A DNA stretch of 64,000 bases from Diphasiastrum complanatum (taxonomy: Eukaryota; Streptophyta; Lycopodiopsida; Lycopodiales; Lycopodiaceae): the NCBI GenBank assembly GCA_029204225.1, contig CM055099.1, forward strand, positions 42,028,597-42,092,596, in the 5' to 3' direction. The position numbers and the translations under genes are program-made. Shown here in pieces: positions 6,716-58,100 of the stretch. Position 1 is the first letter of the stretch; every line of letters starts with the position of its first letter. The notes under the pieces were generated by a model, which saw only the letters and a program-made list of their open reading frames with translations, was not told where the DNA came from and did no database searches.

Positions 6716-8181
6716 CTGGGGATGGGGATGGGGACGGGGATGGATGCAGCTACGAGGGAGCAGAGCAGAGGTCTGTTCTCTCATGCAGAATATTCGTGTT
6801 GCTTTTCTCTGTGTCTTGTGCATCTCTCTCTGGCCTGCATCTGTCTTTCTCTCTTGGCACCCGCATCTCCCCTCCCTTTCTCATGTCCGCTTTTGCAGAT
6901 TTCAGCAGCACCCTCCCTTTTGCTGCTGCTTCCTCGTTTGAGAGTGTGAGAGTTGCGAAAAGTTTGCTGGAACTCGCGCACTATCGCTTTCTTCTTCCTC
7001 ACTGTCATTTTCGAGTGACGATCTTCGGCTCTGTTCAATTTTCTTCTACTTACGACCTTCTTCTTCAGTCATGCAAGGACGTTGATTGAGTGAGTCTAGC
7101 TCAGGTGCCAGGTCTATTGATCCTTTTCCTTGTTGGGCTTTTGTTTACCCTCCTGATTATCATTTTTCTTCCTGACATCTCTTTATCTATATGCTTTACT
7201 TTATTGCTACATGCGCTTCTAGAGCACCGGAAGCACCTGTACTGCGTTTATCAATCTGCACATCTTATGGGTGTCAATCTTGGTTTCTGTCAGCACGCAA
7301 ATGCATAACATGAAATGCTTCTGCCGTGCTGATCTTGCTTTCATTGTTTGATCAGATAGGTGGATTCCGCCTTGGATCTATCTCGGGTTGCAAGGTTACG
7401 AGTTTCTACCTGGTTTCACTAAGAAGTTCATCTGCAAGTGACTTTCTAGCAGATCTGTCTTTCTCTGTATTGCATTCGAGATTGTGTTCTCGAACACTCT
7501 CTTACAACAGGGCCTTTGAATTGAGGCAGTTCTATAGTCTGCGTCTGCAAAGCTTTATGGATACCGATATGAATCGTGCAAACCAAGTTCTGTCAGTCGA
7601 AAAGTTTCCATTACTCTAATCAACACTCTTCAAGTGCTACATTCTTTGCTCTTCAACGTTCTATTTGTACTCAATAGGTTGCTTGGCGTTGGATTTTCTT
7701 GACAGTGTCATGTCAGCATTGCAGATACCATAAGAAACATAGAATCTGAAGCGGTCAAATGTACCTATCGTGTGCCGTTAACTTGCCAACCGTCTTGATT
7801 TGATTGAAAAGCAGCAAGCTGCTTATATCTAGGGCTGCCTTCCGCTTTTAGTCAACGGTGTTCCGATAGGAATCTGGTAGCTGTTCTGCATTGGTCGCAG
7901 CTTCTGTTCAAGAAAAGGACATGCAGTCTTGGTAAAAGCTCTGTAGCAGTTTGTATTTACTCGCGAATGGTGGCTCCTTGAAGAAATTTTGAACGAAAAC
8001 TATACTAGTCGCAGCTCCTGCATTTACACGAACAAACTGAAAGTTAGGATAGAAGGACAAGTAACTATGGAGATGGAAGATCATCATACTTGGCGAGGGA
8101 TGTAAGTTTGTAGCAATTTCGTGTGAAGAAAGGGAGGGATTTTAGCAGGAAACATTGCAGCAAGATTATTTGAGGTTGATC
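6712..8181 (+). other. Probable 5' untranslated region of the QWRF gene, possibly spliced
   Basis: No conserved coding sequence is seen between the CT run and the start codon at 8182. A possible leader intron could use a GTGAGT donor at about 7091 and the TTGCAG acceptor at 8155-8160, which would leave a short leader (CAAGATTATTTGAGG) before the start codon. A GTAAGT word at 8102 is another candidate donor. In-frame TAG at 8143-8145 closes the reading frame upstream of the start. The splice choice is inference. Confidence 0.4.
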
Positions 8182-10092
8182 ATGATCGCTGCCTCAATGT
8201 TCCCCGCGTCTCCACGGCATCAATCGTTGCACCAGCGAGGAAAATCATCTGACCTCGACAATGGGAGGCTTTCGGTGGCGCCTTCAGACAGGAACATGGG
8301 AGATTACAAATTTCGGAACAAAGAGGTCAATTTCAGGTCCAAATCCATCACAACATCCACGCCTCCTCAAGCAGCAACAGCTGCTGTTTCACGCCGTTTT
8401 CCCTCTCCAAACCTCGGCCGAGCCCCAAACATCCAGGATTCTTCTAAACGAGCAACGTCTGCAGAACGCAGGAGACCTGGGGGATCTCCGTCCAGAGCTC
8501 CAAACAACCCTGTGGATGCAACATTGGTCTCCAAGCGACTGTGGCCATCAAGCCAAAACATATCTTCCTCAATGCAGAGTGATTCTTCCTCCATATCTTC
8601 AAGTAGTCTGGGTAGTGGTCGGGTCGGCGTAAAGGAAAAGCCTGAGCCTCAAGCATCGTCTGATCATACATTGAAACCTGCAGCAAATGGTGTGCGCAGA
8701 TCAACAGAGCAAAGCCCAAATCGCAAACCAACTCCAGAGAGGAAGGGGACTCTAGAGAGGAAGGGGACTCCTGAGAGAAAGGGGACTCCTGAGAGGAAGG
8801 GGACTCCTGAGAAAAAGGTTACTCCCGAGAGAAAGTGTTCTCCGGAGAGAAAGGGGGAGACTCCGGAGAGAAAGGGGGAGACTCCAGAGAGAAAAAGGAC
8901 ACCATTGAGGCGTCAGATTACCGATCAAGCTGAAAACGCAAGGCCTTCTGAGAGTAACCATTATCGACCAGACGTACAAAGGTGGCCAGGCACTAGCAGT
9001 GTTAAAGTGCCTGCTTCAGCGTTGAGTAGCAGAGCGGAATCAAGTGTGGAGAAGCAGAAGGCTTCGCCTGAAGCTACATCATTGCTGGTGCAAGAAAGAT
9101 CCGTCAAAACTGTTTCTCGTACAACAATACCTGCTCCCTTCGTGCGTAGCGTTCCCAAACAGTCTAACGAGAGCCTTGTTCAACCCGCCTTACAGATTAT
9201 TACCCGACGGCTGGTTTTAGAGAGCAGAGGAAAAGAGAGGTTTGATTCTGACGACGAGAAAATTTCTGACAAGGACAAAGAAACTAGCGGCAAGGACAAA
9301 GTCTCCAATTCCAGCTTCAAGCTGACTGAGTACACCATTCATGTGAGGCAATCAACAGAGGAAGCGCAATTGGCGAGCTCAGACGCCACTCCCGCTAATC
9401 TGGATAGTATATCTGACTCAGACAGTGTTTCATCTGGGAGTTCAGGTGCTCTCATGACATCTGGGTTGGGTTCAGGGGCACCAGCAACTGGAAACAAAAT
9501 AATAATCGGTGGAACTACTGTGCCTGCTCGCTTTTGGCAAGAGTTAGGAAGCAGGGTTAGAAACGTGTCTGAAGGAAACCGAATGAAACCATCTATGTCT
9601 GAGTCAGACTTCTCATCACCGGCCGCAGGGAAGGGATTGCGAAGAACAAAGGCTGCATCTTTGGGGCCTCTATCCTCTATAAATACTGTATCCAATAGTG
9701 TGGGAAGCCCTTTCACTAGCTCATGGGCTTTTTCACCACGTAGGATGGCGCCAATATCTGTCTTAAATTCACAACCACCAGCTACCCCCCCAGCTACACC
9801 TGCAGTACCAAACAAGCCGATACAACCATCCTCACCTTCACGACGAATGCCAAGTCCTACAAGGCCAAGAGGAGCAATCATCCAGTCGCCTTCTAGTGGG
9901 ATGCAGATTAATCGTGTGGGCTCTGCACCAGGCCTGTTGAGTTTTAAGTCAGAAAGCTTTAAAGGAAGGCAAGCTTTTGGTCAATTTGAAGAAGTCCTGT
10001 TACTTCGAATGTTACATAATCGATGGTTGCAATGGCGCTTTGTGAATGCTTGGACTGAAGTTTCTATGAATGTTCAAACTGAACAAGCTGAG
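8182..10092 (+). CDS. QWRF gene exon 1
   Basis: Encodes residues 1-637, all of the disordered basic region and the QWRF motif. It ends ...EQAE at the donor GAG|GTAAAT. The open frame runs 63 bases further into the intron and stops at 10155, so a retained intron would give a product lacking the core helices. Confidence 0.93.
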
Positions 10093-13000
10093 GTAAATGT
10101 GGGCATGCATGGACGTTGTTATGTCAATGACACTATTTTTGTTCACTGTATCTGACAGCTCTGGATCTGCAACTTATTGATGTTCGTACTCTAATATAGG
10201 AGTTGCCTCAATAAGTTGCTTTCCATGCCAGCATTCATCACAGTCGAGTCTTGCCCTTTGCCAATTCAAACTTATAAATGACAAGCCTCAACTTTGCAAA
10301 CTTTATGATTTATAGCAGTTTTATGTGTCGTAACAGTTTGTAATCTGGATACATGTGGTTTTCATCTAGATAAACTTCACTCATTTTAGGATGGATGCCA
10401 AATCATACATCAATTATTGTTAAAATCTACATCTCTTGATGCATCTGGTTTTTTTTGTCTATAGACACTGATGATGTGATAAGGGATATGAAAGCATACA
10501 AAAATTGTGTGCCTTCAGCTCTCTGCAAAGCACTGCTCCCTGCTTTGATCTTTGATTGTTATCCTCGAATGAACCTTGCTGGCTGGTTGTTTTTGATTCT
10601 CTTATTGAGCTCTGTTTATCATTATTTTTCTTACATCCATGTCGCCCTGATGGCCTAGCACTTTCCACACCATGGGTATAGTGCTAGAGCAGTTTTTGGA
10701 ATAACTTTATTTCATCATATTTCAATATATATAAAAAATGCCTAGGAGCACTTGAATTTGAATTTGGAGTTGCACAATTTAAGATTTTCCTTCTTGCTGT
10801 GCTATAAAGCTGAAGTCTGCTCAAATTTTTTGTTTCCTGCCAAGCTCTATCACACACTCTTGCCTGGGAGCTTCTGAGATCCTGAAGCTGTGAATGCTTT
10901 GATCCATAACCGAGATGAAATGACAAAAAAAGTATACATGTATCACATCTAAATGTATGTTTCTTTTAGGTATTGATAATCTTCAATCTAATGAAATAAT
11001 TTTCAGCCTATAGGTGCATGAGGGTTTGGTGGAACTCCTTATCAGGGATTGTTTTTTATCCAATCCTTCGTGAATCATGCTAGTATTAGAACAAAACTCT
11101 ATTTTACTAAGTGTGTAACTCCATATAGAGAGAGCATCCTTTGTTTTGCACCTCCACTGTGCAGAGCCAGAAACTGTTAGACAAACTTCTACTATAGGGC
11201 CATACAGCAATAGTGTTAGGATTCATTGGGTAAAGGGGTAAACCCAGTTCATCCTGATTAGAAAAGTTATAGTAAAGTCAGGGCTGATACAATATCCCAT
11301 TTTCAATCAAATTATGAAGAAAATTTGCATTCGATGTAACTTAGCCTGTTATAAATGATAGCAACATCACTGCAAAATTTTATAGAAAATCGCTTGAAGC
11401 TGTTATGATAGATGAAAAGAAAGTAACATGAACAAGGAACATAGAAAATTACACCGTGAGGTTGTTGTTAGACACTAATGGACCTATTGGACCAAGTATG
11501 GCTGGTTCTTGGGTCATTGATGTTGATTGGTCAAAGCCTTTGACCGAAAAAACTCTAATTAAGGAGGTGAGTAGGGAATAAATTAGGTTTATTGCGAGGT
11601 GCCTAGCTCTGCAAGCACCTCAAGAAACCAACTAGCATTTGAAAAAATGAATCTCCTCCCAACCATAAGCAAACTCTTATGCTAGTTACTTGTGATCTTT
11701 GTTCCGGAGCACGTGGCGTCCATGCATGGGTAGCTACTCCATGGAGGCTGGCCAAAATTAGTTCAAAGATGCTAGATAGGTGTAACGGCTAAGATGGATT
11801 GCCATCCCCATGTTTCGTTGTAACTTGCGGCTAAGTGGCTCTTGGTTCCACTCTAGTAGCCTGTAGCCAGCTGGCTAAACCTAATCATTGGCTGTTTCTT
11901 CTCCTCTAGTGAGACCAAGCTTTCAACAAGGGTGTCACCTTAATGTAAGTACTTCTTCAAGCGGCTGACATGGAAAACTGGACGCACTTTATATCCTGAT
12001 ATAACTTTAACTTATAGACCACCTCACCAATTTTGTAAAGAGTTTCCATGGTTCATAGTACCTTGGTGATAGTTTCTTACACTTACTCCTAAACATTTTG
12101 AAGTGGGACTCCATGAGTAGAAAGGTTGCAGCATATAGTTTTGTGAAGCGTAATGAAGGGATGACATACATTGATGATTGTATAGCTTATGTTACCAAAT
12201 GTCGATTCAGTAGATTTGTGCTTTCATCATAAGGGCAACAACTTTCATGGAAGATTCTCTTTCATCTATAGCATAACATTATAAAATAGATGAAATCTTT
12301 TGGTTGCATTTTTTACACTTTCATATGCTTGTAGCATTTTATTATTTTAGCTAACACATACTCAGCTTTGAAAGATATGTTACTTTAGAAGAGATACCTG
12401 GATACCTCTTTCAGGTTTATGCAGTTTGGGAACAATTTGAATGTCTCGAATTATTTCTTTATTTGGCAGTTAACATAGATTAACGTCCTTACGCTTTATA
12501 ACAATCAACTTGAAGATATCTATTTTAGGACTGGTGAGTAGTTTTCATTACAAAATGTCTTCAATATTTGATTCAAAAAACACACATTATTAAATGTTAG
12601 AAACAAAATATTTCAAATGCATAAAACACTTTTTCATGAAAATTAAAGCAAATTTTGCTCTTTATTATATACCAGCTTCTAACTTGCATTGAATCTTCTT
12701 ACAGAAGCTATTATGTAATGCGTGGATGCAAATATCTGACCTGCAAACATCTGTCTCGATGAAAAAAATCCAGCTGCAACAAGCGAGACAGGAAGCCAAA
12801 CTTGATTCGCTACTTTCTTCTCATGTACGCAATCAAAAAATTCCTTCATTGCTTTGTTGTTTTCTAGGTTATATAATCGCCATCGTCATGGGTAGATTGC
12901 TGATTAGAGTAGATCCTAAATGCTGCAAAGGGATAGTATTATGAAACTGGAATGTCATGAAGTAGGCTATGATTGTCAGTCCCCATGATAGATTAAAATT

Positions 13001-23991: not shown

Positions 23992-24555
23992 TTAGAGTAG
24001 GCTTGTGAATTTTTTTCTTGTTTTTTTTGGGGGGAAGGAAATAGTGCTAGGGCGTTTAGCCATCAATTTAGGTTGAGCTCTTGGCCTTTCTAGTGTGGTT
24101 TCAATAGGAGCAGCATGGGCAATTGATCGTTTTTTTCCTAGGGGGCCGATTCAGAAGGTGCAAATTTTTCTGTAGCATCTTTGGTGACCGGGACAGTGGA
24201 GGAAGCTATTTTGCCACATCCCAATGTCACATAGTTTGAACTATGAGAAGAAAAGACGACATCCTTTCTCTCAACAACAACATCAAAGTGTCACCCTCTT
24301 GGCATGTATCGAGCACATCATCAAATCCTCGAACATTTTTGTCTGGAAGTCCTCGTATGTAGTATGGAGTGCCTCCAATGCAGTGATATTCCACCTCACT
24401 GCATAGGGCAGATGAGTGGTCATATCTTGTGTAACCTCCCTCACAGCCCGGTAGAAGGCTGCTTTCGGGATCAAAAGTTTGGTGCTCCTCTGCAATGCCT
24501 TGATGTCCCTCAACCATGGTCGGCGAGGTCTTCCTCGTCTTTGCGCATTTCTCAA
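23992..24555 (-). pseudogene. Histone H3/CENH3-like gene or recent pseudogene, with C-terminal tail
   Basis: Minus-strand frame 24555-24283 encodes an almost complete histone H3 fold. LRDIKALQRSTKLLIPKAAF matches the alphaN/alpha1 start, YRAVREVTQDM alpha1, ITALEALHTTYEDF alpha2, and KMFEDLMMCSIHAKRVTL the very conserved end of alpha2. Loop 1 (TTHLPYAVRW) is four residues longer than in canonical H3 and ends in Trp, as in centromeric CENH3 rather than H3 (RF). A stop and frameshift right after RVTL remove the expected MPKD; reading on in other frames gives DVVVERKDVVFSSHS and then a basic tail, GKKRSIAHAAPIE...PPKKTRKKFTSLL, ending at 23992. The region is intronless. An N-terminal ARTK-type tail is not found, so an upstream exon is missing or out of sight. 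A second, more decayed relative is at 43712-44482. Confidence 0.8.
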
Positions 24556-24589
24556 ACATTTTTTTAAGCTCTACATTACAAAACATTTA

Positions 24590-33781: not shown

Positions 33782-34136
33782 CATTAGGGCCCTTTTTGGA
33801 CTCAAAAAGGGCCTCTTCACTAATTATAATTAGTATTAATGATGACATGTGTACCAATAAGAGAGTGACAACTGAGATGGAATGGTCCATATGACATGGC
33901 ACATCCAATGGTGTAAATTAGATCTCCAATTCTAACCCACCCACTAACTCTCTTCTAACTCTACTTCCTCAACCCATAATAATGATGATAGGACATGGCT
34001 CAAGTTCAAATTTAAATTGAAAATATAGCTATTTTTTCACGGCCTTCGAAAGTTGTTTTTAATAACTCAGAATGTCAAAAAAGGGGGCCCAATATTTCAT
34101 TGGGCCCCCATATTGAAAAGAAATTCAAAAAAAAAG

Positions 34137-34172
<36 letters not shown>

Positions 34173-34412
34173 GGGGGATTGAGGTACAATCCCCCCCCCC
34201 CCCGCTCCCCCTTGTGTACCCTCTCCTAGCCCCCTCTGCTCGCTGACTGCGTTGTCCAGCGGGCCCCCCACCTTCCTCCCTCCGGGCCGCTGGCATGAGT
34301 GAGGGCGCAAGACCTGCCCACTTCGAGGCATCGGCTCCCCTGGGCACGCATGGGCTGGTGGCGCGACGTCTCCCCCTCCCCTCCTCAATGGCCGTGCAAG
34401 AGGATGTGGGGG

Positions 34413-34449
<37 letters not shown>

Positions 34450-34933
34450 GTGGATCCCTCCGGGTCTTGCGCCCTCACTCATGCCAGTGGCCCGGAGGGA
34501 GGAAGGTGGGGGGCCCGCTGGACAGCGCAGCTAGCGGGTAGAGGGGGCTGGGAGAGGGTACACAAGGGGGAGCGGGGGGAATTGTACCTCAATCCCCCCT
34601 CCCCCCAACTTTTTTTTTGAATTTTTTTTTCAATATGGGGGCCCAATGAAATATTGGGCCCCCTTTTTTGACATTCTGAGTTATTAAAAACGACTTTTGA
34701 AGGCCGTGAAAATTGAAAGTCATATTGGATTCAAGATTTTAAATAACATTAAAATCATTTGTCCTTGTTATACTACACTAGGCCCTAAGTGAAGCCTATT
34801 GAAATGTGAGTTAACCCATGATAAACCCATGGTGAACTGCCGCATAGGACAATTAGCGGGTTAATTAATCATAATTAGCAAACACGTTTAGGCAAGGAAG
34901 AGGCCCTTTTTGAGTCCAAAAAGGGCCCTAATG
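33782..34933. mobile_element. Foldback element with identical 37-bp inverted termini
   Basis: The termini 33782-33818 and 34897-34933 are identical inverted repeats, beginning CATTAGGGCCCTTTTTGGAC. Inside, a second and longer foldback has arms 34039-34311 and 34463-34708 (CACGGCCTT..., GGGGGCCCAATATTTCATTG, GCATGAGTGAGGGCGCAAG), separated by a 150-base spacer. No transposase is encoded. The flanking sequence (CTTCCC and AATGGAGATAATG) rejoins to resemble CTCCCCAATGGAGATAATG at about 39635, which marks the pre-insertion site. No clear target duplication is seen. Confidence 0.88.
34139..34446. repeat. Two 33-nt G runs and a C run inside the foldback
   Basis: G33 at 34139-34171 and G33 at 34414-34446, with about 13 C at 34191-34203. 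Such runs can form G-quadruplexes. Exact lengths may be sequencing or assembly estimates. Confidence 0.85.
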
Positions 34934-39130: not shown

Positions 39131-40827
39131 AATTTCATATTTAGTTGCAGTGGCAGAGTGTTCTCCACCCAAGCTACTTCCAACTGGAGAAATGGACTTA
39201 GAAATCATAGATTAGCATGACTCACAACTTGAGAAATGATTCTCAAGTTGATATTGATAAAAAATTGGTCTCCCTTGATGTGGATGAGACACATGTACAA
39301 ATTTTTTTAATGGAAATATATTTATAGTTTTCTATGGTTGTTCTTACATGTTTTTTTTCCTATTATTAATCCAGGTTATTATTGATTCATTTTCAATTGC
39401 TATGGTGTTCCTACATGTTTGTTTTTCATAGCCTTGGTCTGCCTTGCCTTTACCTTGGTTTTTTGAATAGGTTTAGAAGGTGATCTCAGTGAATCTTTGC
39501 CACAACCAATCCAAACATGCGACATATGTTCACACAGATTTGCTATAGTAAAGCTTTATTGAGATCATCTTCTAAACAAGGGCAAGCGTCAATTCGATAT
39601 CTAATTGTAGTGGTCACTGAAGTTCAAGTGCCCGAAGATCTCCCCAATGGAGATAATGAATTTCCTGCAGGAGACAATGAATCTTGTTATCGAAAACTCA
39701 TGTTATCTAGTTGCAATTACATTGTGTTCTACACCATGGAAATGGAGATCATAGAAATGAAAGAGCCTCATAGAAAAAGTGGTTCATATATTTTTAAAAA
39801 TGATGTATACAAAAAATTGTATTACATAATACAAAATTCCATTGTTCATAATCTATGGATCTTCAATTTCGATGGATGTTCCAATGTCTTTGCACTTTAT
39901 ATGCTCTTCCTGCCTTACTCTTACATGCACAAGAAAAATTGTTTTAGTTAATATATATTTTAAAACTGATTCACTTAGAATAAGAAAAGAAGGAATATTT
40001 TCATATGGCATAACGTACCTTTACACCATTCAATTGAAATTGATAGTATTGAGGTAGATCGAATTACAACATGTCTAGTTCTGATCGAATGTGATTGAGA
40101 CACCAATGATCTTCCTCAACCTCAACCATTGCAAGAATGTTGTCATTCCTTTTCACTGTTATTTGAAGTTGCTCTTGAGGGTTTATACCAAAATCTTGAT
40201 CAAGTGGCTTCCAAACATTTTTGCATTTAATCCATCTTCTATAATACAGCAGCAAAGTGAGCATTTGTTTTTTGATGTGATATCTAAATGTCATTGATGA
40301 GTAACATACTCTGCACTCAACTTGCTGATTTTGCTTTGTATCCCAATCATCTATAAAAGAAACAATTTAGAATGGAAATGAGCACAAAGGAATTGCGGAT
40401 CAAAGCCACGTGTTATGAGCTATCTCTGAGTAACTGTAACTCTGCCTGAATCAAACACTTCTGCTAATAAGCAGTAAGCACAATAGCAAACTCTAAATCA
40501 ATCCTAACGAACTGAGCTAGAATGCTCAAGAGTGTTCAAGCTTGAAAGCTTTAGAGAGATGCTAACTATGCTTCAATACTTGATCATTCAAAAACGATCT
40601 AAGATGATCTAAGATGATAACAACCTAGAAATATGAGCAACTATTTATACTAAGCAAATGCGGCAATGTCCAATTAGTGGGACAACTAATTAGGTCATAG
40701 ATCATAATGGCCAGTGGACCATAGTGAGCTGACATCCATCCAGTTAGTAATTCCTGGAAATTTACTTGTTATAAGAGTAGGGCAAGTCTTTAGCTTCAAG
40801 ACGAGTGGAACGCTAACTATCAATCAA
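39131..40827. other. Spacer with an unassigned open frame
   Basis: 39640-39715 is a diverged copy of the sequence flanking the foldback element (CCCCAATGGAGATAATGAAT, GTTATCGAAAA). The frame at 39517-39951 overlaps it and has no family that I recognise. 40380-40700 is non-coding. Confidence 0.35.
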
Positions 40828-43113: not shown

Positions 43114-43711
43114 GAGTTCATCTTTAAACAAACTGGATTACACACACCCTCAGGACATCACATATAAGCTCTAATGATCACTGCAATCAGAAAACAATAA
43201 ATTTATGAGAATGAATGTGAAATTAAAATTCATATAAAAAACCTTATAAAATTTGATAAAAATACACTTATTTTGTTATGTATGGGAGCACAAGAATTGG
43301 AGTCCCCACTCTGACGTATCAAAGCATATCATCGTGCAGACTTTTAAAATCAGGAAAATCAAAAGTAGCCATGAATTGAAGCGGAAACAATGCTACATCT
43401 ATAAACAGTGGGGTCTGGCAAAACTCCATCCAGTACTGAATTGCCTCCCCTCCTACATTGTCACCTAGCATTTTATCCCTACTTTTCAATTCACCTGCAT
43501 TAATCTAGAAAGGGGAAGACCAGCATTGGTCTTCGGCATCTTAAAACTTTATAGAGGACCTAGAGCTTTAAGATATGTGTTTAACAATTGGTCATACTGT
43601 ACATATTCAGGAGTATTTACAAAAGCATGTGCAGGGGGTAAAGGAAGTAATACAGATAAGCCACTCAAAGAATTGTCATTCAAAATTGATTCGACCTTTA
43701 AATTTACAAAA

Positions 43712-44482
43712 TCATCTAAATCTTTTATGAAATTGGAGGGGGGAATTAATATTTGTGAGGGTAGGAGGAGACTGAGATTTTGATGGAGGAGGAGATTTAT
43801 TAGGAGAGGAAGATTTAGGAGGAGAAGATGGAGATTGAGATCTAGGAGGAGAAGAAGGATACTTAGGAGGAGATTGTCGAGCAGTTAGAATCTCATGCGA
43901 GGGAGAAGGCTTTGAAAAATTTCTCACTTTATAAGGAGGGTCATGAGACCTCTTCTTTGAAATACTCTTGCTCTGTACTCGAAAAACAAGCTGGGATGGT
44001 TGAGATTGCTTTTTTTTTTTTCTCTGCATCTTGTTTATGAGGAGATGATGGAGCTAGTCTGAAGTACTCAGCAAATTTGTCACATGTGTCCTGTAGCCTG
44101 AATACAACGTTGAAATCCTTGGGCATGATGGTCATCCTCTTGGCATGGATAGCTGCAACAACACTATTTGAAAAAATTTCACTCGAAAATTCTCATATGT
44201 AGTGTGCAACACCTCAACTGCCATTATAGTCCATTTCACATCTGTAGATAGACTTCTTGTAACTTGTCTGATGGATCTCTGTATGTGAGCTTTCAGAATC
44301 AGAAGATTATTGGTCTTTTGTAGCTTCTGAATATCCTTCAGCTAGGGAGGGAATCTTCGTCTGCCCCTTGGCCTAGGAGGAGCTGGTGGTGGATGAGGCG
44401 GTGGTGGAGGATTTTCCTGACCTCCTCATGTGATTGGGATTCCACTAGGGTGGATTTGTGCTATTTTCTTAGTCCGCGTCAT
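43712..44482 (-). pseudogene. Histone H3/CENH3-like pseudogene with long Ser/Pro tail
   Basis: On the minus strand, ATG at 44482 opens MTRTKKIAQIHPSG, like the ARTK start of H3. After a TGA a Pro-rich spacer leads to RPRGRRRFPP, a TAG, and then the histone fold: LKDIQKLQKTNNLLILKAHI, QRSIRQVTRSLSTDVKW, TIMAVEVLHTTYENFRVKFF. One frameshift near 44160 is followed by AIHAKRMTIMPKDFNVVFRL, matching the highly conserved H3 C-terminus. Loop 1 ends in Trp, as in CENH3. Instead of stopping, the frame continues with QDTCDKFAEYFRLAPSS; after a shift at a poly(A) run comes an Arg/Ser/Pro-rich tail of about 100 residues (KSISKKRSHDPPYK, SPPRSQSPSSPPKSSSP). Two nonsense codons and at least two frameshifts make this copy a pseudogene. 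No introns are seen. Confidence 0.82.
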
Positions 44483-45575: not shown

Positions 45576-46117
45576 GGAATTGATATCGGCTCTTTCAAAA
45601 TGCTTCGCCTTATGAAAATGTTCTAAATGAACAATTATCTCAAAAGAAAAAATTTCGTCTTTACGGTGCCTAAATAGGGTAGTATAATGGTCGTTTACTA
45701 CCATGTAAACCATGTGAAATGATATTAGCCTCTTCTGACATGTGCTTGTCCAGAAAATTTCAGTCTCGTCAAGATGATATCAAATCAATGTGCACACTGT
45801 TGTTCAGTCCTCGACCAAAATCATTCAATTGCATTGAACCGATATCATGTTCAATTTGGCTAGTTCCTAGCATGTCCTCAGATAACAAACTTTTGGATTT
45901 TTTGAATGCCAGTGATATTCCATCTGAGAAATTAGAGTATTTTTTCAATATTTTTTTTTGCACCCTTCGATATCGATAAGCTAGTTTATGGAAATCGTTA
46001 TAATCTACTTTCTCTTCTTGATATTCTCAGATTATTAGTAATTTTATTCAAAATATAAATAGTTTTTGTTTTGTTTATTTTTAGGACCTTGCGTATTCTC
46101 AACCATTCTCTAAGCAT

Positions 46118-49100
46118 ATGTCTTTTGTCTATTACATATCTGCTGAAATTCTAGATAATGAGTCTATTGAATCTTCTACTGTTTCAATGAATGAAGCATC
46201 TGCATCTGCTCCAGTTGATGTAGATGATGCAGATACTGATATAGGGGTTGAAGCTGAAGCATCTATGGCCTCAGATTATCAGAAAACTCTCCCTCGTTCT
46301 ATAATCCTCTATGATTCTCATCCATCTACATCTCCTGTTAATCAATTAACTCTACTCAATATTCTCATGTATTTTATAAATAATGGGAGTTTTAATGACA
46401 TACGAGATGTTTTGAATTTGAGAGAGGATGAAATCCTCTCAATTTTTGCACAAGATTTATCAGAATTTTCTGACATTGTTGATTACACATATGATGACCT
46501 TGAAAGTGAGATAGATTATGATAAAGATGGCAATTAAAAATTTGGCAATGAGGCCTTGGAGGCCATGATTGAAAAATCTAAAGCCTATGAGAAAACTTTG
46601 CCTACAGAGGAGGATTTTTTTTTTTAAATTCCAAAAAAAATATCCCCCAAGGAGATTTACAAGGAGCGACCATACCCGCCAAGGTGGTACGACATTTTTC
46701 CATCATACCCAGAATACGCCACATTTTAAGTGCAATTCCATCGCAGAGCTAATGACATGGCATTTGAGCAATTGTTCATTCAACGATACTATGAGGATCC
46801 CTGCCGATTCTCCAGCATGGAAGCACGTGGATGCTACCTGGCACGAGTTTAGGGATGAGTCTCGTCATTTGCATTTGGGGTTGGCCATGGATGGTGTGAA
46901 TCCATTCGGTTTGCACTCCACATCATGGTCCACTTGGCCGGTTGTCCTTATAAGCTACAACATCCCCCCTTGGCTAAGTATAAAGAAGGGGCACCTAATG
47001 CTCGCCCTTCTTATCCCCTGAAAATACAAGGCAAAAAATATGGACGTGTATATGGCTCCCTTGATAGATGAGCTAAATATTCTATGGCAAGGAGTTCAAG
47101 TGAGCGATATATCAAGGCCAGTGAGAAAAAGAGATTTTGTGATAAAGGGGATCTTGATGTGGACGATGCATGACTTTCCTGGCTATGGGGAATGTTCAGG
47201 TGAGATATCCTTGCTATTGGTTTGATTCATGATATTATATTAAATTTTATGTGCATTCACAAATTTTCTTTCAATTTGAACATTGGACTCATGATTAAGT
47301 TGGTTGTTTTGTAACAATGTAGGGCTACAAACTAGTGGTTATAATGCGTGCCCCGTTTGTGGCGAGTATTTGCAAGCACGTCCCTCACAACATCTGCCAA
47401 AGATGATTTATGAGGGCTACACTCGATACCTTCCACCCGATCACCCTATGCATGATGGCCTTGTTGGCCAATGTCCGCATTCCATGAAGGTACAATACAT
47501 ATTTGGGCCAATTAATGATACATGTCATTTATTTATTTTATGATTACTCTCTTTATGTTTCTTCTAACGATATATATTATGCATTAAATGTGTGTGCTTG
47601 TTTGTTAATATTGTAGGCAAGTGATTGGCTTCGGATTTGGAGATCCAATCAAGATCTAGGGTGACTACCTCCCGACATGAAGAGGTTATCAATATTTCAC
47701 GAACTCCCATATTGGAGAGAATTGTTGATAAACCATCTTTTGGGCCTGATGCACATATTCAAGAATGTCGGGAGAGCAGTTGACCAGGTCGAAAGATAAA
47801 AAAGATGCACAATATGACCTAAAAGAAGTGGGAAAGATGGCCGATTTATGGCCACAAATGGTGGGGATTTCGATTGTCCTACCAAAGCGGCCCCATGGAC
47901 CTTATCAAGTAGAGAAGAGACAATTGTAAAGAGGGCAATAGCCTCTTTTTGAACTCCGACAGGACACATGCGATGCCTAAAGGGTGCCTTCACAAGAGAC
48001 AACAAGCTAAGTGGATGAAAGTCTCATGACTGGCATATCATATTTTTTGACTTTTTCTCCATATCAACATTGTCGCTTACATTTTATAGAATGTCTTGTG
48101 ATTTCGTGATGATCTCATTGCGCATATATGTATCTCAATGATCATGACCAAATTGTGTTTGTGCATGCAGTTTGTGCTTCCCTTGGTGTTGAGAGGGTTC
48201 TTGAAAGAGGAGTTAAGGAGTGCAATCTACAAAATCAGTGGTTTGGTGAGGTACAATGAATGCGCATGCGATTCACATCATTTTTTCTTGGGGTGATTCA
48301 AGATGATGATCTTACTAACATGTATGTCATTGCTGTTTCTCTTTCTTATGAAGATACATCTCATCCAAAGAGATACCGCTGGCATCCATTGAGGCGGCAA
48401 GACAAAGCTCCATCGAGGCAGCGTGTTTGATTGAGAAGCACTTTCCCACATCCATTCTCACCATTCAATATTGTGCACTTTGTAGATGAGGTGGCCATTG
48501 CAGGTACATCATCTACTTGCGTCATTTGCCTATTCTTAGTCCATCCTAGACTATTGCTATTGTGGTAATTCCCATGTTCCTTCACGAACATTGATTCATT
48601 TTTTTTAATTTAGGCACTGTCCATAGCTATTGGATGTTTTAATTGGAACGATTCATGAAAACATTGAAGGGCTTCATAAGACAAAGGGCAAGGCCTGAGG
48701 GTAGCATGGTGGAAGGATGGCTAGTGCAAGAGTCCATGGTTTACATCATGGAGTTTCTTGCTCATAGCGATCCTTCTATTCCTCATCTTTGGGATAAGAA
48801 GGACAATGAGCGTGTTGTTGGAGAGGTCCCTCAAGAAAAAGGAGCGATCATGAGAATGAGTGAGTCCTTCAGGGAGAAGCTAAATAAGTTTTGCATTCTT
48901 AATAGTGAGGAAATGCAAAAGTGAATTTCGCTATACGAAGAGACCAAGGCTTGTAGACAAACCACTCGAGCCACTTTTAGGAGAAGGCAAAGAAGACAAC
49001 CATACCCACCTGGCCTCGCCCTTCTACCCAAGGACATGACGCTTGATTGGCTAGTGATGCACCTAGAGAAGCCTCCGCAAACAACCAAGAAGTAATAGAG

Positions 49101-55141: not shown

Positions 55142-58100
55142 TGAATTCCCAAGGGAAAGTGAGTCCTATCATGGACAAGCTTGATGGAGTCAATTACCAT
55201 CTGTGGAAATTTAAGATGAAACTATACTAATGGCTAAAGAATTGTATGATGTTGTTACAGGTGCAGAAGGAAAACCCGAAGCAGAAGATGCAGCAATCGC
55301 CAAATGGAGGCTGAAGGATTGAATGGCCATGTATCCAAGACTCAGACATCGAAAGAAGTCTGGGACATCTTGAGCACACTATACAAAGTGCGAGATATAG
55401 CTTCCAAGCTACATCTTAGGAAGAAATTTTACTTCCTCAAGATAGCGAATGGTAATTCCTTGCAAACTCACATCAATCAATTTAAGAACCTGCTAAGGCA
55501 AATGGCTGCTATCGGGTCTGTCATAGATGATCAAGACGCAGTGATGCAACTGCTTACAAGCTTGCCAAGATCATACGACAACTGGGTGATGATCATCACG
55601 ATACATCTAGAACTGACTCTTTCGAGAGTCATTAGTATGTTGTTACAGGAAGACATGCAAAGGAACGAAGCCTCAAGTTTCTTAGCTGATTCTCACACCT
55701 TATACACCAACAAGAGCATGACTAAGCAGAAGAAGAAGACAAGCCCGAAGCAATCAAAGCCAAACTAGAAACCAGCTCAGCATAAAGAACAATCGAATCC
55801 GTAGATGAAGAAAAAGCTGTTCTGCAGATGCTGCAAGCGAAACAACCACGAAATTCAAGACTGTCGGATACTTCAAGCAAAGATCAACAACAAGAGGTAG
55901 TCGAATCAAGTGGCAAATGCAACTGCAGAAGCTCCACAGCCTAGTCAAGAAGAGAATCATGATGTCTTCATGACCAACCATCAAGGAGCATCTGACGACA
56001 ATTCTTGGTTCCTGGATTCCAGAGCCACTCAGCACATGACCAGTCTCATTGGCTATTTTGAGTCCTATACACCTTACAATACCCAAAAATTTGTTCATCT
56101 TGGCGACAATAGCACACAAGCTATTAAAGGTGAAGGTACTGTAAGATTAAGCTTTGCAAATGATCAGTCTAAGCTACTCTCTAAAGTCCTGTATATACCA
56201 AATTTATCTATGAATCTGCTCTTTGTAAGCAGAATCAAAGATCTAGGATATAGAGTAGAATTCAAATGTGATTAGTAGTTGATAGGATAGGCAAGATCCT
56301 AGCACTTGAAAAGAGGCATGGATACTTGTATAAATTAAGTCATTGCTTTTCTACCTCTAGTCAGGCACTCAGTACTTCTATTCATGCAAATAAAAATATA
56401 CTTTGGCATTACAAACTTGGTCACTTGAATCATGCTGCTGTGCAACAAATGTCTAGACAATCTATTATTCTTGATCTCGACTATCCTTGTGATAAAGTCG
56501 AGTTACCTGTCTGTCAAGACTGTTTAGTTGGTAAACAGACTAGGAAACCATTTAAATCAAGCCATCAGCATATTGCTAGAGGATTGTTAGACATTCTACA
56601 TTCAGACATTTGTGGCCCGATGAAAAATCCTTCGTTGAAGGATGAAAATTATTTGATAACTTCTATTGATGAATTTTCCAGAAGGACTATGGTGTATTTT
56701 ATAAAGAAGAAATCAGAAGCCTTCAACTACTTCAAAATTTTAAAGGAGCATACAGAAAAGGAGACTGGACGGACGATCAAGGCTCTAAGGTCAGACAACG
56801 GTGGAGAATGTATCTCTATCGAGTTTAAGGAGTACTGCCAAAGCCAAGTCATTGAGTAGCAATTCATCACTCCTTACAGTCCTCAGTCTAATGGTTTAGT
56901 TGAGAGGAAGAACCGTATCCTGGTTGAATCAGCCAAATGTATGCCAGCGCATGCATCACTGCCCAAGAGATTCTAGGCTGAAGCTGTCTCCACTGCAGCT
57001 TACATCCAGAGCAGATGTTCGACTAAGGCCCTCTTAAGAAAGACACCCCATGAGGTGTGGACAGGCTCTAAGAGTGTTTGGGTGTGTTGCCTACGCGCAG
57101 ATCCCAAAAGACATGAGGAAGAAATTAGACTTCCAAGTTCTCAAGACCATCCTGATTGGATATACTTCATCTGATTATACATACAAGCTGTATGACCCTG
57201 ATACCCATCAAATCTTGTATAGCCGAGATACAGTCTTTATTGAGGATCAGTTCATTGACCTCAAAGGTAAGGATATTGCTCCAGGAGAAATCACCTGCAT
57301 TGACACGACAGTCCGAGCTTTTGGCTCAGGCATGTCTATTGTTGACCCACTTCGTGACAGCGAATCAAACGAAGACGTTGCTGTTGACAAGCAACAAGTC
57401 CCAGGAGTGGTTCATCAGTTGAATCCTCCCAGAAGATCAAGCCGAGTGCGCACATAGCCCACAAGGTATACTCTTGAGTCTGCATGTCTCTTGATACAGG
57501 AATCGACTACAGTTGAAGAGGCACTCAGCCAACCAGACTCCGATATCTGGAGAGAAGCTATGGACAAAGAGTATTCCTCTCTGATCAAGAACCATACATG
57601 GTCATTAGTCGAAGCTCCTATTGGCTGCAGTATCATTGATTGAAAATGGATCTTTAAGATCAAATACAATGCCAACAGAGCAATTGACTGAAGGAAGGCA
57701 ACACTAGTAGCATGAGGATTCACTCAGATCTCGAACGTCGACTACAACAAGACTTTCAATCCAATAGTCAAACATTCGTCGATCCGAATGCTCTTGTCTT
57801 ATGCTACAGTTGCCGACCTCGAAGTTCCACAACTTGATGTACAAACAACTTATCTGAATGGAATTATACAGGAAGGTATCTATATGATGTAGCTCAAAGG
57901 ATACATTCTGGAAGATATGAAGAATCATGTCTATAAACTCCACAAGGCACTATACGACTTGAAACAATTTGCCAGAGCTTGGTTTCAGAGGATCAACAAA
58001 TTCCTCATCGAAAAAGAATTTAAATCAAGCACTGTTGATTGCAATGTCTATTCCAAGTCAGTACAACAATCCTTCATTACCATCATCTTATACATGGAGG

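Follow-up and report, generated by a model that had tools for sequence, protein, structure and literature searches.

The question raised by positions 43,712 to 44,482 of the window (a 64,000-nucleotide stretch of contig CM055099.1 from Diphasiastrum complanatum, analysed at its full length) was whether the broken H3-like gene copy found there is a single damaged gene or one member of something larger, and what kind of unit carries it. Translation of the minus strand from 44482 gave MTRTKKIAQIHPSGIPIT up to a stop codon and then an H3 fold with LHTTYENF, followed by a frame change into AIHAKRMTIMPKDF and a second frame change into a Ser/Pro/Lys/Arg tail that runs to 43712. When the window was searched by tblastn with a typed H3.1 sequence, this copy (copy B) was recovered in two pieces at E = 3e-11, and a 58-aa piece of it matched the Pfam histone family PF00125 at E = 7.2e-7, scoring 29.9 bits against a cut-off of 26.4. 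The MTRTKK start, the LHTTYENF-containing fold and the Ser/Pro tail on the minus strand that the initial annotation had described are confirmed by translation, and the fold also by tblastn and PF00125.

The reading frame of copy B is interrupted by in-frame stops and frameshifts, so that no such protein can come from it. Its DNA is 88.7% identical to locus L070 over 1,251 bp, where the frame of the relative is 311 aa, and 81% identical to locus L072 over 1,233 bp, and identity over such lengths places the resemblance beyond chance. Copy B continues beyond 43712 to about 43343, as its relatives also continue into a C-terminal domain. The tail region is skewed in composition and a further frame is open there too; as an open frame in skewed sequence is weak by itself, the evidence for the tail is taken from the aligned tails of relatives. 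A copy identical to copy B, found on contig C419 by the genome search with the copy B fold, is probably a haplotig.

The other H3-like sequence of the window, copy A, was matched by the typed H3.1 sequence at 24.3-24.5 kb (tblastn, E = 2e-16) and by PF00125 at E = 8.7e-17 (62 bits, cut-off 26.4). It shows 92.7% DNA identity over 259 bp (24287-24545) to a subfamily A (famA) element on contig C4, and the match ends there. Both copies had been proposed to extend past the end point of H3, which holds for copy B (to about 43343) but fails for copy A, a 259-bp piece of the fold in which the tail is absent. The features of the window are collected in Table 1.

Table 1. Features located in the window, with positions counted from its first nucleotide.
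Feature	Position	Strand	Basis
H3-like gene copy of subfamily B, pseudogene (copy B)	43343..44482	minus	tblastn, PF00125, DNA identity to L070/L072
Copy B, N-terminus MTRTKK, then Pro-rich linker	44482	minus	
Copy B, H3 fold	about 44341-44090	minus	
Copy B, Ser/Pro/Lys tail	about 44029-43760	minus	
Copy B, C-terminal domain, conserved in relatives, here in remains	down to about 43343	minus	
Copy A, a fold-only fragment of the H3 of a subfamily A element	24286-24545	minus	DNA identity, PF00125
Remains of gene P2, 'LREDE' motif	46085..46618	plus	tblastn to fam2 and famA P2, E 1e-9 to 1e-13
Remains of gene P3	40025..40366	minus	46% aa identity to fam2 P3, E 2e-27
1.15-kb element without H3 gene, fam1-type inverted termini CATTAGGGCCC...GGGCCCTAATG	33782..34933		
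Inverted repeat with long runs of G/C, about 250-280 bp, within the 1.15-kb element	34034-34712		
Transposase_21 match adjoining the P2 remains	46569-47018	plus	PF02992, 1.6e-28
669-aa open frame with PERKG-type repeats	8146-10155	plus	
Frames like retrotransposon integrase and gag	197-1172 and 55250-56859		judged by eye

Some of these features stand apart from the H3-like copies. The inverted repeat in the small element could form a large hairpin, and the Transposase_21 match probably belongs to a separate nested element. The 669-aa frame, which we take to resemble a QWRF-motif microtubule protein, is perhaps a real host gene.

To gauge the family, the 1.74-Gb genome was searched with PF00125, the best 150 of 6,325 first-look candidates being scored, and at least 153 matches were obtained. 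In that list, the 13 genes of canonical H3 score 163.7-165 bits and the H3-like remainder 95-110 bits, apart from three rows of exon size at 83-84 bits, among which L063 and L064 read as H3 genes with introns; all 20 of the H3-like loci that were read proved to be of a new type. At least 150 further places were found with the copy A region, and at least 150 more, from 3,977 candidates, with the copy B fold, the latter at 77-88% identity when the window itself and the identical C419 copy are left out. The PF00125 and copy A-region lists had zero places in common on C3 or C8, the two contigs compared by eye. Overall, H3-like relatives, many of which keep a long open frame, number in the hundreds and divide into no fewer than five diverged subfamilies, although all family counts are lower bounds with haplotigs counted in. 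The searches with PF00125 and with the copy B fold rule out a one-off pseudogene, and the dispersed family predicted from the window alone was found: rather than two broken copies with tails that cannot be aligned, the genome holds an intact frame at L072, and the tails of intact relatives align with copy B. In genomes of this kind, transposon copies may inflate the number of histone or CENH3 genes counted.

The famA places were gathered with the copy A peptide in the wrong frame (24287-24568, not 24286-24567), which still reports the same DNA and strand and makes stop flags uninformative on the H3 frame. Among the 150 subfamily A H3 places listed, 54 lie on C3, 47 of them within 3.3 Mb (C3:18528884-21798148) at a median gap of 49 kb, with others at C3:29979111-30154088; local amplification or a centromere-like region may account for the cluster. 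A shortened, different 3' end is common to the three C3 loci read (L034, L038 and L039) and to L041 on C14. A typed CENH3 query ranked the 13 canonical H3 places at the top (98 bits at 60% identity), with later rows at 77 bits or less; no CENH3 host gene stood out, a minority of these rows having been read and an intron-split gene being liable to score low.

The family travels with a recurring set of neighbours. Within a subfamily, DNA is 79-99% alike across kilobases, often with sharp ends, and in 20 element-type loci (L009-L028), each read with 4 kb on either side, gene P2 was found in 18, P3 in 15 and pieces of a third gene, Tnp, in 15. None of the three was present at eight canonical H3 loci, each read over just 3.4 kb. 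The famA locus on C4 reads Tnp(+) P2(-) H3(+) P3(-) over 8.5 kb, and the same gene order is seen in the fam2 loci L021 and L025, with Tnp reversed in L024. Between fam1 and fam2/famA the P2-H3 pair is flipped as a unit, the order Tnp-P2-H3-P3 being constant (L010:1944-4264 compared with L025:3971-6537). A genome search with famA P2 gave at least 150 places from 4,916 candidates. Of the 150 listed, 34 have a listed famA H3 place (150 in all) no more than 4 kb away, where about 0.1 would be expected for uniform places; 32 of these pairs are on opposite strands, all head to head, and the two same-strand pairs represent a single locus that is repeated on a small contig.

Tnp codes for a transposase-like protein, a putative transposase. 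The pieces of fam1 and famA Tnp that were scanned had no Pfam match, no sequence relative was found in the PDB, and the AlphaFold model is poor (mean pLDDT 39). A viral origin was also considered and found no support: searches of viral contigs with Tnp, H3 and P2 as single-protein queries, by which only close relatives can be reached, confirmed no relatives.

The same neighbours surround copy B. P2 and copy B stand head to head in the window, as in famA, and the P3 remains (an open reading frame at 40067-40366 on the minus strand, with one stop inside 40025-40345) are on the H3 strand, like fam1 and unlike fam2 and famA. Given this difference from fam2 and famA, it is likely rather than certain that P3 and copy B belong to one element; should P2, P3 and copy B form a single unit, that decayed element would measure at least 6.6 kb, with copy B as its H3 gene. 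Very probably, copy B is what remains of the H3 gene of an ancient element, one of a large family of multi-gene DNA transposons, a setting that the initial annotation had not recognised.

The best-seen subfamily, fam1, supplies one whole element of about 8.8 kb with 39-bp terminal inverted repeats, and insertion without target-site duplication. The repeats were recognised on contig C21 as a 39-bp inverted match starting CATTAGGGCCC (CATTAG) between the left end of L010 and the right end of L049, about 8.8 kb apart; L011 is a second case, at 6.4 kb, and an H3-bearing unit between inverted termini was seen in fam1 only. With at most one mismatch allowed, the fam1 terminus has 1,150 matches in the genome (588 and 562 by strand), compared with 0 for a reversed-pattern control. 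In fam2, one sharp end, CTCTARTG, is present in six of six loci. Both inverted termini were seen just for fam1 and the small elements, and were not found for famA, famB or the copy B element. Nine elements were recovered with both ends; none has a target-site duplication, and eight of them are about 0.5-1.2 kb long, with the same ends and without H3. The Tnp gene of L021 contains a 1.09-kb element whose empty site is preserved in L025 and L017 with 0 gaps and 0 added bases, and L018 shows one gap over this stretch, not within 30 bases of the junction.

The superfamilies that duplicate their target site (CACTA, hAT, MULE, PIF and others) do not agree with these insertions, at which no duplication was found. 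CACTA/EnSpm had been suggested by the CAYTAG ends and by the Transposase_21 match in the window, and was rejected because the scanned Tnp pieces lack PF02992 and no target-site duplication was seen. An LTR retrotransposon was considered on account of 322-bp direct repeats in L024; these are absent from the other fam2 loci compared, and the L024 frames scanned with Pfam contain no retroviral genes.

Histone frames are intact or nearly so in four subfamilies (fam1, fam2, famA and famB), with PF00125 scores of 105 bits for fam1, 99.6 for fam2 and 83.1 for famA (cut-off 26.4). The fam1 protein (L009, 412 aa from ATG) begins MARTKQTARDPR..., runs through SR-, Q- and Pro-rich stretches and carries the fold at its extreme C-terminus, whereas fam2 (L024) begins MDRRKQTRTDFF... 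and has about 170 aa behind the fold. The famA frame (L048, 240 aa stop to stop) consists of MARTKRTVRL..., the fold and a KR/SP tail, with the C-terminal domain directly behind in a different frame. In famB (L072), MVQTKQTARGHS... (start MVQTKQTARG) is followed by a Pro linker, the H3 fold, an SP tail and the C-terminal domain, the frame being open across the 380 aa fetched from ATG and 417 aa stop to stop. The C-terminal domains of fam2, famA and famB align with one another, whereas the fam1 frame stops with the fold. A fifth type, fam3 (L012), has the N-end MARTKQTAREPQ and stops ahead of the fold; two distinct element H3 folds, one of them this fifth type, lie within 2.5 kb at L012:4040-4294 and L012:6194-6549. 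Among the copy B-fold matches listed, the longest frame is that of L069 (558 aa), which runs into a retrotransposon-like stretch. At L069:71-1249 the subfamily B H3 frame continues unbroken into what by eye is a polyprotein-like stretch, a possible H3-polyprotein fusion. The AlphaFold model of the famB H3 has four helices in histone order at low confidence (mean pLDDT 36).

Among the 39 copies whose N-terminus could be read, 38 retain K4 and none retains K9. Residue 9 is D in 12 of 14 fam1 copies and G in the other two, L in 15 of 15 famA copies, G in two and I in two of four famB copies (window copy included), D in five of five fam2 copies and E in the single fam3 copy, counts that stand for five subfamilies and not for 39 independent events. 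They leave out, because the N-end did not align, five famA rows out of 20 (including copy A), one of six fam2 rows and the famB locus L071, and also the fam1 locus L022, which yielded no row. The peptide of H3 residues 1-8 is largely kept in fam1, famA, famB and fam3, and the remaining tail differs; by eye, the N-tail beyond residue 8 is unlike H3, with no K27 region recognised. These are accordingly not canonical H3 proteins with K9, K14, K27 and about 135 residues, given the loss of K9 throughout and frames of 240 aa (L048) to 412 aa (L009). All four main subfamilies retain H.KR.T..KD, a stretch through which H3 pairs with H3' and contacts DNA. The traits of CENH3 loop 1 are unevenly spread: subfamily A has a longer loop 1 and RW, subfamily B has RW alone, fam1 has neither, and fam2 lacks the Trp and has a loop 1 one residue longer. 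The description 'CENH3-like' therefore fits the family in part: the Trp of A and B sits at the position of the canonical H3 Phe, and A has the longer loop, whereas fam1 and fam2 have no Trp there.

The element H3 fold is under constraint. The ratio pN/pS in the fold is 0.37 in fam1 (13 copies, one with a stop), 0.24 in fam2 (six copies), 0.48 in famB (four copies) and 0.49 in famA (14 of 20 copies, five of the 14 with stops, the other six having failed the cover or identity filter), so that the dN/dS check proposed with the initial annotation gave values below one in all four subfamilies tested. For the C-terminal domain it is 0.41 in famB (three copies) and 0.35 in fam2 (four copies). P2 gave 0.38 in fam2 (four copies) and 0.67 in fam1 (eight copies), and fam1 Tnp gave 1.66 (six copies, of which L014 and L019 are near-identical); the two fam1 values indicate little or no constraint on these genes in the copies read. 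Histone-HMM score guided the choice of the fam1 and fam2 copies, and long frames in part that of the famB copies, which favours low pN/pS, whereas the famA copies were picked with the wrong-frame peptide, a bias that works against it. Between subfamilies, which share 35-49% aa identity, third positions differ by 0.54-0.72 per site and second positions by 0.25-0.37. The H3 variant therefore looks like a core gene of the element, constrained through deep subfamily divergence. In the tree, fam1, fam2 and famB are supported as groups, A joins B at 99/96 and famA itself is supported at 83/79; element H3s are not all grouped with the one CENH3 row. The deeper forks of the tree lack support, and the parent of the element H3 may have been either H3 or CENH3.

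A mechanism can be proposed for the retention of such a gene. The element H3 would pair with host H4 and form nucleosomes on element DNA, or wherever P2, P3 or the putative transposase might bring it. Plants silence transposons by a loop between H3K9 methylation and DNA methylation. As the element H3 keeps most of ARTKQTAR with K4, and has L, D, G, I or E in place of K9, H3K9 methylation would be impossible on these nucleosomes, which would break the loop and let the element escape silencing; recruitment of element proteins would fall to the long linkers and the C-terminal domain. Entry into nucleosomes is suggested by the retained fold and signature residues, and escape from silencing by the absence of K9 together with established plant silencing biology. 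Plant CENH3s keep the ARTK start and lose the remainder of the tail, so the loss of K9 may instead mark a CENH3-like origin. Weighed jointly, the identity of the element and its anti-silencing mechanism are slightly favoured; the anti-silencing mechanism by itself is possible, at somewhat less than an even chance.

Among the alternatives, the element H3 might be a working part of transposition that, with host H4 or alone, wraps or bends the ends or opens target chromatin, the loss of K9 being incidental. The company of the same P2, P3 and Tnp genes in fam1, fam2 and famA agrees with this, as do the long extra domains, including the C-terminal domain common to fam2, famA and famB. A plain DNA-bending subunit would have no need of the largely kept 1-8 peptide, however, and we consider this reading unlikely, if a serious candidate. 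Quite unlikely is a mimic of centromeric H3, derived from or imitating CENH3, that targets or builds centromere chromatin and thereby gains a transmission advantage or an insertion niche. The closest PDB relative of copy A is the fission-yeast CENP-A cnp1 (3e-16), ahead of H3.3 (2e-15), and the loop 1 Trp of A and B, the longer loop of A, the ARTK start with diverged tail that is also usual in plant CENH3, and the dense subfamily A cluster at 18.5-21.8 Mb of C3 among the places listed all point the same way. Yet fam1-type terminus sites among those listed on C1-C3 (29, 26 and 25) show no departure from uniformity (KS p 0.24, 0.82 and 0.56), the CENH3 loop traits are missing in part from fam2 and altogether from fam1, the fam1 and fam2 folds resemble host H3 (56%) more than one another (48%), and the tree leaves some element H3s apart from the one CENH3 row.

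It is more improbable still that transposons picked up a host H3 gene in Pack-type fashion and that this gene multiplies as passive cargo without function. Broken copies such as copy B are numerous, small same-ended elements without H3 are common (eight of the nine two-ended elements), and Tnp and P2 of fam1 are little constrained. Against this, the same neighbour genes recur in subfamilies with highly diverged folds, the N-terminal peptide is kept, and the lack of constraint expected of a Pack-type passenger was not seen: with biased sampling, pN/pS is 0.24-0.49 within subfamilies, below one even in famA despite its adverse wrong-frame sample, and third positions are in excess between them. 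An expanded host family of histone-variant genes that hitchhikes in other transposons would be in line with the known tendency of histone variants to multiply and with the local clustering of subfamily A; it is very improbable, as DNA identity spans several kilobases including P2, P3 and Tnp, and as the inverted termini and the empty site give an element structure that already contradicts it for fam1. The element-borne H3 is thus retained as the reading of the locus, with its anti-silencing role conditional. In its fullest form, this reading would make the family a new class of DNA transposon with its own H3 (K4 kept, K9 and a recognisable K27 region gone), building element-specific nucleosomes that H3K9 silencing cannot mark and that are steered by P2, P3 and the C-terminal domain, a proposal that we regard as tentative and rather doubtful.

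To our knowledge, no transposon that carries a histone among its regular genes has been described, and none was found in the open-access literature searched. The novelty rests on this and on the lack of a match, in the families tested, for the termini and the transposase-like protein. If the reading is true, mobile DNA can supply its own nucleosome part. The many H3 copies with K4 kept and K9 gone constitute a natural test of the role of H3K9 in transposon silencing, and they bear on the origin of histone variants with odd tails.

Four known systems invite comparison. VANDALs belong to a known superfamily. VANC of the Arabidopsis VANDAL Mutator-like elements removes DNA methylation from the element experimentally (PMC5735166). 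Both are multi-gene plant DNA transposons, but the anti-silencing of VANC has experimental backing whereas here it is proposed, and VANC is no histone. Fungal DNA transposons with a captured TET/JBP dioxygenase, thought to aid escape from silencing, are likewise DNA transposons that carry a gene acting on chromatin or DNA marks (PMC12730594); there, an enzyme directed against DNA methylation sits in several unrelated transposon lineages, whereas here a structural histone sits in a recurring gene neighbourhood. Histones within selfish elements, some with extended tails, are also found in viruses, including bracovirus H4 and the single H3 genes of large DNA viruses; the six single viral H3s are reported to be 73-87% identical to the H3 of a possible host (PMC9145170). 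The present sequences, by contrast, are carried by transposons, and share only 40-56% identity with the host H3 encoded in the same genome. With CENH3/CENP-A they share the H3 fold, the diverged tail and, in part of the family, the Trp and the longer loop 1, but differ in being hundreds of transposon-borne copies, three subfamilies having in addition a long extension at the C-terminus.
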